Assembly (NCBI RefSeq): GCF_031180975.1
Contig: NZ_JAPSLI010000004.1
Location: forward strand, 248,001 to 312,000
DNA: 64,000 nucleotides
Origin: Microbacterium sp.
GTDB taxonomy: Bacteria > Actinomycetota > Actinomycetes > Actinomycetales > Microbacteriaceae
Direction: 5' to 3'
Part shown: positions 2,614-31,486 of the stretch, piece after piece
Numbering within the stretch: position 1 is the stretch's first letter
How the letters are laid out: every line of letters starts with the position of its first letter
Notes under the pieces: generated by a model
The model's input: only the letters and a program-made list of their open reading frames with translations
The model's database searches: none
What the model was told of the DNA's origin: nothing
Made by a program: the position numbers and the translations under genes

Positions 2614-3555
2614 TCACTTGACGCTGCCCGCGGTGAGCCCGCCGACGATGTAGCGCTGCAGCGCCAGGAACAGGGCGACCGGCAGGATCGACGCGAGCAC
2701 CGCGCCCGCGGCGAACACGCTCCAGTTCTTGGAGAACTCGTCGGAGACGAACCGGTAGAGCCCGACGGCCAGCGTCTGCTTCTCGGGGTCGACGAGGATC
2801 ACGCTCGCGAGCACGAACTCGCTGCACGTGCCGATGAAGCTGAGCAGACCGACGACGGCGAGGATGGGGGCTACCAGGCGGAGGATGATCGTGAAGAAGA
2901 TGCGGGCGTGGCCTGCGCCGTCGATCTTCGCGGCCTCGTCGATGGAGGCGGGGACGGTGTTGAAGAACCCGTACATCAGGTAGGTGTTCGCGCCGAGCGC
3001 GCCGCCGAGGTACACCATGATCAGGCCGATCTGGGTGTTCAGCCCGATCGCCGGGAAGATGTCGCTGATCGTCACCATGAGCAGGAAGATGGCGACCATG
3101 GCGAGCATCTGCGGGAACATCTGCACGACCAGAAGCGCTGTGAGGCTGAACCGGCGCCCGGTGAACCGCATCCGCGAGAAGCAGTACGCGGCGAGCGCGC
3201 CGAGCAGCACGGTGAACACCGACGTGGTCAGCCCGACGATGAGGGTGTTCACGAACCACGCCCCGTACGGGTGGGTCTCGCTCTGGAACAGGGTCAGGTA
3301 GCTCTCCAGGCTGAACGTGCTGAACAGCGAGTTCGCGGTGAGCAGCGTGCCGCCCGGGTTGAACGAGGCGCTCAGCACGTACAGCAGTGGGAAGAGGGCG
3401 AAGACCAGTGCGAACAGGCCGACGATGTGACGCCACCCAGTCTCGCGGAAGTACTTGCCGAACGGGCGGCGGGGCTCCGGTGCCTCGCCTCGGACCCCGG
3501 CGCCGGCGACGATCGCGCGGGTGGAGGCCGTCTCGGTGATCTGCGAGGTGCTCAT
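2614..3555 (-). CDS. malG: Maltodextrin ABC transporter permease MalG
   Basis: A 313-residue inner-membrane permease of the MalFG carbohydrate importer family. A cytoplasmic N-terminus is followed by six hydrophobic segments, the first near WRHIVGLFALVFALFPLLYV. The EAA loop that contacts the ATPase reads EAAKIDGAGHARIFFTIILR. The protein ends in GGLTAGSVK, a usual C-terminus for MalG. It begins 1 nt after the malF stop, so the two are cotranscribed and probably coupled. With MalF it forms the channel that receives substrate from the lipoprotein encoded upstream. No ATPase gene is in the locus. Confidence 0.93.
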   Translation of the reverse strand: MSTSQITETASTRAIVAGAGVRGEAPEPRRPFGKYFRETGWRHIVGLFALVFALFPLLYVLSASFNPGGTLLTANSLFSTFSLESYLTLFQSETHPYGAWFVNTLIVGLTTSVFTVLLGALAAYCFSRMRFTGRRFSLTALLVVQMFPQMLAMVAIFLLMVTISDIFPAIGLNTQIGLIMVYLGGALGANTYLMYGFFNTVPASIDEAAKIDGAGHARIFFTIILRLVAPILAVVGLLSFIGTCSEFVLASVILVDPEKQTLAVGLYRFVSDEFSKNWSVFAAGAVLASILPVALFLALQRYIVGGLTAGSVK

Positions 3556-8414: not shown

Positions 8415-9407
8415 TCAGCTGCCGGTGAGCGTCGCCCGCCATCCGGCGACCCAGCGTGCCAGCCGGGCGTAGGCGTCCTCGCGCGCGTCGTGCGCCGACA
8501 GGAACACGTCGTGCAGAGCGCCGTCGATGCGTTCGACGGTGACGGATGAGCCGAGCTTCAGCGCGGCACGGGCGATGTCATCGACGAGCAGCACGCTGTC
8601 GGCACGGGTGAGCTCGTCGGACCAACGGCTGGGGATCGCGGATCGCGCCGAGAGCAGCACGCAGACGGGTGCGTCGATGCCCACGCCCCGGGACACGGCA
8701 GCATGCCCGGCGAGCACGGCGTTCAGCCACGCCGCGTGCACGGCCATCGTCTGCTCGGGACGCCACTCCAGGTTCACGTCCACCGGGTCGTCCGGATCGG
8801 CGACCTCCAGCTGCGCGCGCGTGTAGAACCCGAGGTCGACCTGCGGCGCTATGTCGCGCGGCCACAGCTTGGCGTGCAGCCCCACCATGGGCGCGACCGC
8901 CGTCCGCGCGATCTGGAACTCCAGCCACGGCGAGTTCAGGATCACGGCATCCGCTTCGCCGGGGTGCCGGGACGCCCACAGGCTCAGGATCAGGCCACCG
9001 GTGGAGTGGCCGAGGAGCACGAGGCGGCGCCCTCCGGCATCCCCTCGCGCATCGAGTGCGGCGGCGATGTCGTCGTCGTACGTGCTCAGGTCGGTGATGA
9101 ACCCGGGTGTCTGCCCCGGACGCAGGCTGCGGCCGTACTTGCGCAGGTCGAGGGCGAAGAACCGCGCGCCGCGGGAGGTCCAGAAACGGGCGAGCCGGGT
9201 CTGGAAGAAGTAGTCCGACCAGCCGTGCACGTAGAGCACGTCCACGCCTGCCAGGGGCCGGTCGTCCTGCCCGAACCACCACCACGGCGCGGACTGCGGC
9301 AGGGCGCGGACGACGGTCGCGACCACCTCGCCCTCCGCGTCGTCACCCAGCCAGAGCGTCTGCTGCTGGAACTCGCCGCCGAGGATGTCGGCAACCCACT
9401 CCCCCAT
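8415..9407 (-). CDS. Alpha/beta hydrolase (serine aminopeptidase/lysophospholipase-like)
   Basis: A 330-residue alpha/beta-hydrolase fold protein without a signal peptide. The nucleophile elbow is GHSTGG (VLLGHSTGGLIL) and the oxyanion strand is VLYVHGWSDYFF. The catalytic histidine is probably in IDGALHDVFLS near the C-terminus. The arrangement fits the S33/hydrolase_4 monoacylglycerol lipase-like group. The ATG at 9407 is preceded by TAGGGT with a 6-nt gap, a leaderless promoter candidate. It is monocistronic, 60 bp from the flavoprotein gene upstream on the same strand. Substrate is unknown. Confidence 0.85.
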   Translation of the reverse strand: MGEWVADILGGEFQQQTLWLGDDAEGEVVATVVRALPQSAPWWWFGQDDRPLAGVDVLYVHGWSDYFFQTRLARFWTSRGARFFALDLRKYGRSLRPGQTPGFITDLSTYDDDIAAALDARGDAGGRRLVLLGHSTGGLILSLWASRHPGEADAVILNSPWLEFQIARTAVAPMVGLHAKLWPRDIAPQVDLGFYTRAQLEVADPDDPVDVNLEWRPEQTMAVHAAWLNAVLAGHAAVSRGVGIDAPVCVLLSARSAIPSRWSDELTRADSVLLVDDIARAALKLGSSVTVERIDGALHDVFLSAHDAREDAYARLARWVAGWRATLTGS

Positions 9408-9467: not shown

Positions 9468-10841
9468 TCACTCTCCGCGGGAGATGCGGACCATGTCCTC
9501 GCGGGGGACGACCTTGATCCGCGCGCGCTCCTGCGGGGCGCCGAGCGCGATCTCGTGCTCGTCGAGGCGGTGCCATCCGTCGAGATCGGTCCAGCGCACG
9601 CCGCGCGACTCGAGCAGGGCCGGGATCGCGGCCTCCGACGGGTCGACCGGCTGCCACCAGGAGCCCTGGTCGTTGATCAGGTGACGCACCGTCTCCATGG
9701 CATCCGACTTGGTGTGGCCGATGAGACCGACCGGGCCGCGCTTGATCCAGCCGGTCGCGTACACGCCGGGCACGCGCTGGTTCGACTTCGCCTCGAGCAC
9801 CTGACCCTCACGGTTCGGGATCACGCCGTGCTTCTTGTCGAACGGCACACCGGGCAGCGGCGACCCGAAGTAGCCGACCGCGCGGTACAGCGCCTGCATC
9901 GGCACCTCGCGCATCTCGCCGGTGCCGATGATGCCGCCGGCGCCGTCGGACTTGGTGCGTTCGTAGACCAGCGCTGCGACGCGACCGTTCTCGTCGGTCT
10001 TCACCTCGACGGGGCGGGCCCAGAAATGCAGGTGCAGCCGCCGCGACGCGGTGCCGCCGGCGTTGTTGACGGAGTCCCGCTTGCGCCAGGACTGCAGGAT
10101 CCTATCGATCACCATGACCTGCTTGTTGCTGGCCACGGCGTCGCGGGATGCCTCGTCGTAGTCGAAGTCCTCGTCGTAGACGACCATGTCGACGTCGCGC
10201 AGCTCGCCGAGCTCGCGCAACTCGAGCGGGGTGAACTTCACCTGCGCCGGGCCGCGACGGCCGAACACGTGCACGTCGGTCACCTTGCTGGCCTTCAGGC
10301 CCTGATACACGTTGTCGGGCACTTCGGTGACGAGCAGGTCCTCGGCGTGCTTGGCCAGCATCCGCGACACGTCGAGCGCGACGTTGCCGTTGCCGATGAC
10401 GCCGACGGATGCCGCGTCGAGCGGCCACTCGCGCGGGACGTCGGGGTGCCCGTCGAACCAGCTGACATAGTCGGCGGCGCCGTACGAGGCGACCGCCTCG
10501 ATGCCGGGGATGTTCAGGTCTGCATCACGGATCGCGCCGGTGGCGAAGATCACCGCGTGATAGTGGTGCTTGAGATCGTCGAGGGTGATGTCCTCGCCGA
10601 AGCGGACGTTGCCGAAGATGCGGATGTCGCCGCGGTCGAGCACGTCGCGCAGAGCCGTGATGATGCCCTTGATACGAGGGTGGTCGGGCGCGACCCCGTA
10701 GCGGACGAGCCCATACGGCGCGGGAAGCTGTTCGAACAGGTCGATCGAGACGTCGAACTTGCGCTCCGCCTTGAGCAGGATGTCGGCGGCGTAGATGCCT
10801 GCCGGTCCCGCCCCGACGATGGCCAGCCGGAGCTTGGTCAT
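9468..10841 (-). CDS. FAD-dependent ferredoxin/NADP reductase (FprA-like)
   Basis: A 457-residue flavoprotein of the adrenodoxin reductase-like FprA group. The FAD-binding Rossmann motif is IVGAGPAGIYAADILL at the N-terminus. An NADP-binding motif VIGNGNVALDVSRML lies near residue 145, and ATGWIKRGPVGLIG near residue 365 is typical of FprA. It transfers electrons between NADPH and ferredoxin in the cytoplasm. GGAAGGAAC precedes the ATG. The gene starts 13 nt after the polyprenyl diphosphate synthase gene, so the two probably form an operon; the functional link is not obvious beyond redox and quinone metabolism. Confidence 0.93.
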   Translation of the reverse strand: MTKLRLAIVGAGPAGIYAADILLKAERKFDVSIDLFEQLPAPYGLVRYGVAPDHPRIKGIITALRDVLDRGDIRIFGNVRFGEDITLDDLKHHYHAVIFATGAIRDADLNIPGIEAVASYGAADYVSWFDGHPDVPREWPLDAASVGVIGNGNVALDVSRMLAKHAEDLLVTEVPDNVYQGLKASKVTDVHVFGRRGPAQVKFTPLELRELGELRDVDMVVYDEDFDYDEASRDAVASNKQVMVIDRILQSWRKRDSVNNAGGTASRRLHLHFWARPVEVKTDENGRVAALVYERTKSDGAGGIIGTGEMREVPMQALYRAVGYFGSPLPGVPFDKKHGVIPNREGQVLEAKSNQRVPGVYATGWIKRGPVGLIGHTKSDAMETVRHLINDQGSWWQPVDPSEAAIPALLESRGVRWTDLDGWHRLDEHEIALGAPQERARIKVVPREDMVRISRGE

Positions 10842-29774: not shown

Positions 29775-31433
29775 ATGTCATCACTCACCACCACGTCATC
29801 GGTCGTGCTCGACCGTGTCACCTTCGCCTGGGCCGACGGCACCGTCGCCCTCGATTCCGTCTCCGGCGCATTCGGCGCGGGCCGCACCGACCTCGTCGGA
29901 CGCAACGGCGCCGGGAAATCCACCCTGCTGCGGTTGATCGCCGGTGAACTCGAACCGACCGCCGGTCACGTCACGACGAACGGCGACGTCGCCCACCTGC
30001 CGCAGCGACTGACGCTCGAGACGGATCGCCGGGTCGCCGACCTGCTCGGCGTCGCGGGCGCGCTCGACGCGGTGCGCGCCATCGCGTCCGGCGACGTCGA
30101 CCCGTCGCATTTCGATGCGGTGGGCGACGACTGGGACATCGAGGCGCGCGCTGAGGCCGCGCTCGGCGAAGCCGGGCTGGAGCCGTCGTTCCTCGACCGC
30201 ACCGTCGGCGAGCTGTCGGGCGGTGAGGCCGTGCTGGTCGCGATCGCCGGCATCCGTCTGCGGCGCGCTCCGATCACGCTGCTCGACGAGCCGACGAACA
30301 ACCTCGACCGCGCCGCCCGCGCGCGGCTGTACGACATGGTGCGTGACTGGCGGGGAACGCTCGTCGTCGTCAGCCACGACTTGACGCTGCTCGAGCTGAT
30401 GGACGACACCGCCGAGCTGTACGGCAGCGAGTTGAGCGTGTTCGGCGGGCCGTACTCGGAGTGGCGCGCGTGGCTGGACGCGGAGCAGGAGGCCGCCCGG
30501 CAGGCCGAACGCGACGCCGCGCAGGTGTTCAAGAAGGAGAAGCGGCAGCGGATCGAGGCCGAGACGAAGCTCGCTCACCGCGCCCGTACTGCACGGAAGG
30601 CGGAGGTCGAGAAGCGTGTGCCGAAGATCGTCGCGCACGGCCGGAAGATGGCCGCCGAGGTCTCCGCCGGGCGATTGCGCGTCGAGGTCGGCGCGAAGGA
30701 GGAATCCGCGCGCGCTGCGTTGGATGCCGCAGGCCGGCGGATCCGAGACGACGACTCGATGAAGATCGAGCTGCCGGACCCGGGGATCTCACGCGCGCGG
30801 CGCATCGCCACGATCGGCGACGGCTCTCGGTCGTGGACGGTGCAGGGTCCGGAGCGGGTCGCGCTGATCGGCCGGAACGGGGTCGGCAAGACCACGTTGC
30901 TGCGGCGGCTCGTGGGCGACGGTGTTCACAACTCAGGAGATTCTGCCGATTCCGGGCCGGATGAGGCGCTTCCAGCGCATCTGCCGCCGATTCTCCTGAG
31001 TTGTGAACGGCACACCGACCGGATCGGCTACCTGCCGCAGCGCATGGACGGCCTGGACGAGGCGGCTTCGGTCATCGAGAACATCGCGGCGGCCGCACCG
31101 CAGGTGCCGGAGAAGGAGCTGCGCAACCGGCTGGCCCGGTTCCTGATCCGCGGCGCGGCCATGGACCGTCCGGTGGGGACGCTGTCGGGCGGGGAGCGGT
31201 TCCGGGTCGCGCTAGCGAAGCTTCTGCTCGCCGACCCGGCACCGCATCTGGTCGTGCTCGACGAGCCGACGAACAACCTCGACATCGACACCGTGGACCG
31301 GCTGGTCGAGGCGCTGCGCGCCTACCGCGGTGCGGTGCTCGTCGTCAGTCACGACGACGTGTTCCTGTCACGGCTCGGGCTTGACCTCACGCTCGAGCTC
31401 GACGCCGACGGAGGGCTGAGCGAGGTCGACTGA
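29775..31433 (+). CDS. ABC-F family ATPase (translation factor/antibiotic resistance type)
   Basis: A 552-residue soluble protein with two ABC domains and no membrane segments. Walker A motifs are GRNGAGKST (about residue 36) and GRNGVGKTT (about 365); signatures are LSGGE and LSGGER; the switch loops read [11 protein letters not shown] and [11 protein letters not shown]. The charged linker between domains ([21 protein letters not shown]) is the P-site-reaching motif of ABC-F factors. These act on the ribosome, and some relieve antibiotics. An unusual insert of about 28 residues (383-411) after the second Walker A is encoded by a palindromic element. Preceded by a 250-nt structured leader. 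Confidence 0.88.
30924..31008. repeat. 85-bp palindromic element inserted in frame in the ABC-F gene
   Basis: GTTCACAACTCAGGAGA (30924-30940) and its exact inverse complement (30992-31008) bound an 85-bp segment with inner hairpin GCGCT-TCC-AGCGC. The encoded peptide ([11 protein letters not shown]...LLSCERH) interrupts the usual ABC-F sequence between the Walker A region and GYLPQR. It looks like a mobile palindromic element tolerated in a coding gene, comparable in kind to Rickettsia palindromic elements. Confidence 0.75.
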
Positions 31434-31446
31434 GCGGACGAGGCAT

Positions 31447-31486
31447 CGAGACCCTGCTGTGGTCAACGTTCCGCAGCAGGGTCTCG
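31447..31486 (+). terminator. Hairpin after the ABC-F gene
   Basis: CGAGACCCTGCTG (31447-31459) and CAGCAGGGTCTCG (31474-31486) form a perfect 13-bp stem with a 14-nt loop just after the ABC-F stop codon. No U-tract follows. It may end ABC-F transcription or be a dispersed palindromic repeat; the GAGACCC...GGGTCTC arms look repeat-like. Confidence 0.55.

Follow-up and report, generated by a model that had tools for sequence, protein, structure and literature searches.

The ABC-F ATPase gene of a Microbacterium sp. genome (G000), located in the 64,000-nucleotide stretch of DNA analysed here (the window), carries a long palindrome within its open frame, and the locus raises the question of what such an element is and how it came to lie in an ordinary protein gene. 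The element comprises 85 bp (30924-31008), and its ends form a perfect 17-bp inverted repeat of GTTCACAACTCAGGAGA; when mismatches were allowed, the inverted repeat reached 23 bp at 91%. In agreement with the initial annotation, these boundaries, the position right after the second Walker A motif of the ABC-F protein and the open frame (ORF 29775-31433) were confirmed. The features of the locus are collected in Table 1. A second inverted repeat, with 16-nt arms of 94% complementarity and an 8-nt loop, lies at 31447-31486, just past the ABC-F stop, and is probably the transcription terminator of this gene.

Table 1. Coordinates of the ABC-F gene and of the palindromic element in the window.
Feature	Position	Strand	Remarks
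ABC-F ATPase gene, 552 aa	29775..31433	+	Contains the palindromic element in open frame; two ABC_tran stretches
Second Walker A motif GRNGVGKTT	30870..30896	+	Directly precedes the element-bearing loop
Left arm GTTCACAACTCAGGAGA, genome-specific type AGGA	30924..30940	+	
Interior, letters differ between copies	30941..30991	.	85-87 bp length class; A/T steps about 10 bp apart
Right arm, perfect inverted copy of the left arm	30992..31008	-	

An in-frame insertion adding about 28 residues had been proposed for this site. Since 85 is not divisible by three, an insert of exactly 85 bp cannot have kept the frame cleanly. The loop following the second Walker A motif varied in length among Microbacterium ABC-F orthologues (23-61 aa), and it has 41 aa here versus 23 aa in the short-loop orthologues, giving an excess of about 18 aa instead of 28. 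A palindrome with related arms was present at this site in at least 12 of the 29 Microbacterium orthologues measured, the remainder showing either a decayed palindrome or a short loop without one. Wherever both were known (G000, G042, G118, G001, G005, G010, G049 and G052), the ABC-F arm was of the same type as the dispersed copies of its own genome. Orthologues with and without the palindrome thus exist, and the arms are species-specific. Judged from these alignments, the ABC-F palindrome appears to be an old occupied site, and not a recent insertion; more speculatively, the peptide that it encodes may be merely a tolerated loop.

The same arm is dispersed in the genome. The pattern GTTCACAACTCAGGAG was found 42 times at no more than one mismatch and its reversed control not at all, which bore out the expectation of other genomic copies. 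A covariance model of the family gave 54 strand-wise hits in this genome, equivalent to about 27 elements, its E-values being rough, the gene calls around the elements crude and each species represented by one genome. When each GTDB species, represented by one genome, was scanned for the exact arm, matches were found in Microbacterium and Plantibacter only, both Microbacteriaceae. No prior description of the element was found in the open PMC literature, to which the search was confined, and within this literature the element is a previously undescribed DNA family of Microbacterium and relatives.

The copies were composed of two asymmetric arms of about 18 bp in inverted orientation, separated by interiors unrelated in sequence. 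The lengths of 119 elements from seven Microbacterium genomes were 85 (19 elements), 86 (85), 87 (6), 97-98 (6) and 106-108 bp (3); elements of 86-87, 97-100 and 107-108 bp were found in further genera, and the sample read from G199, of another genus, contained 76-bp copies only. Successive length classes differ by roughly one helix turn. The A/T content of the interiors peaked around positions 18, 28.5 and 38.5 counted from each end, with a best period of 10.0 bp (power 0.814; maximum of 500 shuffles 0.018). We infer that the lengths and the A/T phasing together would fit the needs of bent or wrapped DNA held at both ends.

Between one and three arm types were found per genome, and they were rarely mixed. 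In G000, AGGA was present in both arms of 21 of the 22 elements scored; CGGA arms were found in 14/14 elements of G042 and 19/19 of G118; G164 had the types CTCA (8) and AGGA (6); and the arms of G010, G049 and G045 were GAACTCCAC. Two arm sets coexisted in G001, CGGA (9) and AGCA (13), with no CGGA/AGCA hybrids. The same letters recurred in every copy of a type although pairing alone does not need them, which implies a trans-acting reader. The element could in principle be a nucleic-acid hairpin (an RNA terminator, an attenuator or a cruciform) selected for pairing alone, given the complementarity of its arms and the terminator-like hairpins in some interiors. This is made very improbable by the identical arm letters and, further, by the quantisation of length in helix turns, by copies located between genes of all orientations as well as within genes, and by the lack of any Rfam match to the element. 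A DnaA-box reading of the GTTCACA letters was also considered and rejected, since G010 (GCAGAACTC) no longer has the CACA core and G118 frequently has CGCA in its place.

Orthologous element places were recognised among G000, G042, G069, G118, G001, G164 and G190, several of them common to four or five species; positions in related species are not independent events. In six orthologous pairs the identity was 85% for the arms, 45% for the interiors and 49% for the flanks. In these comparisons the arms behave like a protein-bound site that would be under purifying selection. In addition, near-copies with interior identities of 92%, 88% and 75% were found at unrelated places of G000, showing past spread of the elements. 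The suggestion of a mobile repeat of this lineage made in the initial annotation therefore stood in part: the palindrome is dispersed in the lineage and some copying to new places has occurred, but with the ABC-F site occupied in many orthologues and many copies at orthologous positions, a recent insertion is not what is seen.

Most copies were intergenic, between genes of every orientation, and others lay inside genes. The genes beside them were unrelated (aldolase, AHSA1, GNAT, TetR, hydrolases), and with gene orientations of all kinds around the copies a regulon reading was dropped. Besides the ABC-F gene, in-frame elements were found in an MTS-domain methyltransferase of G042, G069 and G118, conserved across these species, and at the same place of an N6/N4 DNA methylase in G001, G118 and G164 (L208, L226 and L237). 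Such conserved open frames would agree with a protein-level coding feature kept for its peptide, like the Rickettsia palindromic elements, with which this site had been compared and which also lie inside open frames. The arms, however, are translated as VHNSG, TTQ and QLRR in the three cases, that is, in all three frames, pointing to selection on the DNA and not on the peptide. Unlike the Rickettsia elements, this family has no conserved peptide or frame, is mostly intergenic and is constrained in length and arms at the DNA level; the comparison could not be upheld, and a coding role is the least credible of the explanations considered, its probability being close to negligible.

When the arms of G000 were followed, they were paired at 85-87 bp, and the sole recurrent gene seen between elements encoded an AbiEi/Vsr-like nuclease. 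This gene, of about 320 aa, is located in G000 between the elements C1:134640-134725 and 135696-135781 (L174:9041-9126 and 10097-10182). Homologues beside or between elements were found in G042, G001, G122, G159, G011, Plantibacter and three other genera. A profile (A2) built from ten element-adjacent homologues was run on 14 genomes and gave scores above 320 bits for nine genes in eight Microbacterium species (G122, G000, G042, G001, G034 twice, G190, G164 and G010). All nine were flanked by elements, both being detected by the scan in six cases and one by the scan and the other by eye in G001, G164 and the second G034 gene. The flanking arms were of a main type of the own genome in G122, G000, G042, G001, G034 (twice), G190 and G164; the second G034 gene has an arm type to itself (GAACTCCTGCAG). 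All of the 21 remaining paralogues scored below 230 bits, with even a doubtful palindrome nearby in at most two. As the profile was made from element-adjacent genes, no more than five of the nine sandwiches count as independent of the query, these five genes lying outside the profile (Fisher p 3e-4).

No gene of the element-poor genomes G021 and G036 exceeded 210 bits, which is consistent with a dependence between elements and gene. G118 and G069 count against such a dependence, as they have about 20-29 elements and nothing that scores above 210 bits as a partner gene; the partner in these genomes may have diverged, been replaced or been lost. No partner gene was found for the CGGA arm type of G001. 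Relative to a hydrolase gene, the unit composed of element, nuclease gene and element lies on one side in G000 and on the other in G042 (L174:9041-13201 and L161:830-4989), which indicates a local move of either the unit or the gene. A GNAT acetyltransferase gene is also enclosed by two G000 elements (L180:7445-7530 and 8590-8675; G000:C13:446044-447274); it was dropped as a candidate partner, since no recurrence was seen elsewhere.

The AlphaFold model of the nuclease protein (pLDDT 86.5, pTM 0.81) gave as best Foldseek match the AbiEi antitoxin of Streptococcus agalactiae (6y8q, E 1.1e-4). By fold, the C-terminal domain matched the homing endonuclease I-Bth0305I (3r3p, TM 0.82) and then Vsr (1cw0); by sequence, the protein matched 3hrl (2e-6). 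The PF13338 (AbiEi_4) score was 27.5 bits against a cut-off of 25 in one member and just below the cut-off or weak in others, and PF18741 and PF04480 (MTES_1575/DUF559) remained below their cut-offs. Residues E189, D216, E226, D228, H233 and D242 were invariant in A2. On this model the N-terminus of the partner protein is assigned to the AbiEi fold and the C-terminus is a predicted Vsr/EDxHD nuclease with conserved acidic and His residues.

Binding of AbiEi antitoxin monomers to a pair of 23-bp inverted repeats is positively cooperative and bends the DNA (PMC7319586), and the target on which I-Bth0305I dimerises is almost 60 bp long (PMC3943268). We regard it as rather probable, from the sequences compared, that the palindromes are a network of loop-forming elements whose two arms are bound by an AbiEi-type HTH/Vsr-EDxHD nuclease, a partnership similar to that of REPIN and RAYT but with an unrelated enzyme. 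The AbiEi domain would bind each arm, one monomer per arm, and contact between the two bound monomers would bend the intervening DNA into a tight loop of about eight helix turns. The nuclease domain may then cut or nick at or near the element, and such cutting could spread copies in a homing or transposition-like manner, as is supposed for RAYTs acting on REPINs; the same partnership would keep arms and protein co-evolving. The spacing of the repeats in known AbiEi operators, 3-13 bp (PMC7319586), is far closer than that of the element arms and counts against this binding model.

The elements were strongly clustered towards the origin. With dnaA as marker, 115 of the 123 elements in seven genomes with contiguous chromosomes lay in the origin half (binomial p 2e-25), a pooled value that overstates independence, as positions are common to related species, and that depends on element lists limited by E-value and on a G034 chromosome length taken as about 3.37 Mb. 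In G001 alone, 28/28 elements were in the origin half (KS p 5.5e-14). No element was found within 58 kb of dnaA, and an element-free zone of about 60-110 kb around dnaA was observed in all the element-bearing chromosomes examined. More speculatively, the network may now take part in a chromosome function of the origin domain, which would account both for the clustering and for purifying selection acting on the arms, the ABC-F copy included. We put forward only tentatively the fuller proposal that this is a two-part system, in which a lineage-persistent AbiEi-nuclease and co-evolving, helically quantised loop sites would have been domesticated as an origin-domain organiser in Microbacteriaceae.

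The origin-domain distribution and the conserved positions would be expected if an unrelated protein that organises the chromosome (Noc-, SlmA- or MatP-like) bound the elements and the nuclease gene were a passenger between two of them, and the element-rich genomes G118 and G069, which have no close nuclease homologue, agree with this. Noc, SlmA, MatP and parS sites are likewise sequence-specific and clustered in one chromosome domain; they are single short palindromes. A passenger does not explain the matching arms that flank 9/9 close homologues as well as relatives in further genera. ParB_N was present as one clear copy in all 12 genomes searched, element-poor ones included and whatever their arm types; ParB/Noc paralogues were rejected as readers, since the copy number does not follow the site types. 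We consider this alternative improbable.

The elements might instead be a MITE- or REPIN-like mobile family, still or recently selfish, in which the sandwiched gene is a transposase-like enzyme and the origin bias and conserved positions reflect insertion survival and not a function. The near-copies at unrelated G000 places, the few and rarely mixed arm types, and a gene flanked by its own elements, resembling the RAYT flanked by REPINs (PMC3116915), all speak for it. Yet the arms are kept at old orthologous positions in diverged surroundings, the ends appear to taper and not to be sharp (the terminal GTTC varies in G042, G001 and G118), and no consistent target-site duplication was seen in the flanks of 43 copies; the origin clustering, moreover, is strong. 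Patterns for the AGGA/CGGA and CTCA arms gave no match in 2.9 million viral contigs. A still or recently selfish family is judged unlikely, though to be taken seriously.

For the preferred reading, a looping network with a nuclease partner, the closest system in behaviour is REPIN-RAYT, described by Bertels and Rainey (2011, PMC3116915) as paired arms at discrete spacing, of few unmixed types, with the enzyme gene beside its own elements. Both systems have inverted conserved arms that co-evolve, a variable interior, discrete spacings, one to three rarely mixed types and an enzyme gene in single copy with its own elements on either side (here for all nine close nuclease homologues). Unlike the REPINs, which are extragenic and random in position, the elements lie partly in genes at conserved, origin-clustered positions (115/123), their lengths step by one helix turn with a 10-bp phased interior, and their partner is an AbiEi-HTH and Vsr/EDxHD nuclease. 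The RAYT family (PF01797) was found in one of 149 Microbacterium genomes and is absent from G000, by which a RAYT/Y1 transposase was rejected as the partner. With no RAYT, copies in genes and conserved clustered positions, the element is not a member of REPIN-RAYT. The AbiEi antitoxin shares the N-terminal fold (6y8q) and the cooperative binding of two monomers to inverted repeats with DNA bending, but its operator has repeats 3-13 bp apart at one promoter (PMC7319586), whereas here the arms are about 50 bp apart, occur in dozens of places and go with an added nuclease domain. I-Bth0305I and Vsr share the predicted nuclease fold, I-Bth0305I dimerising on its target of nearly 60 bp; the gene described here is not in an intron and is flanked by palindromes that are also found alone across the origin half.

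If the proposed partnership is correct, a REPIN-like association has evolved around a different enzyme class, and long-lived, co-evolving pairs of repeat and enzyme would be a general outcome and no peculiarity of RAYTs. It would also explain odd palindromic loops in ordinary proteins such as this ABC-F. The helix-turn lengths and the 10-bp phasing, combined with a free interior sequence, make DNA looping directly testable, and the evolution of DNA-binding specificity could readily be studied on the many arm variants that occur naturally together with matching proteins. The origin clustering ties such repeats to chromosome organisation, which is an open question for REPINs too.

Elements were often close neighbours, with 8 or 19 bp between them, as at L193, L199, L203 and L212 of G001, L098 and L100 of G190, and L233 of G164. 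The start-to-start distance of close pairs was 93-96 or 105 bp in seven of nine, and 124 and 194 bp in the other two. The close neighbours of G001 differed in arm type, CGGA lying beside AGCA. In G000, two elements 129 bp apart were found within one long open frame (L183:3047-3132 and 3176-3261; G000:C16:4846-5060).
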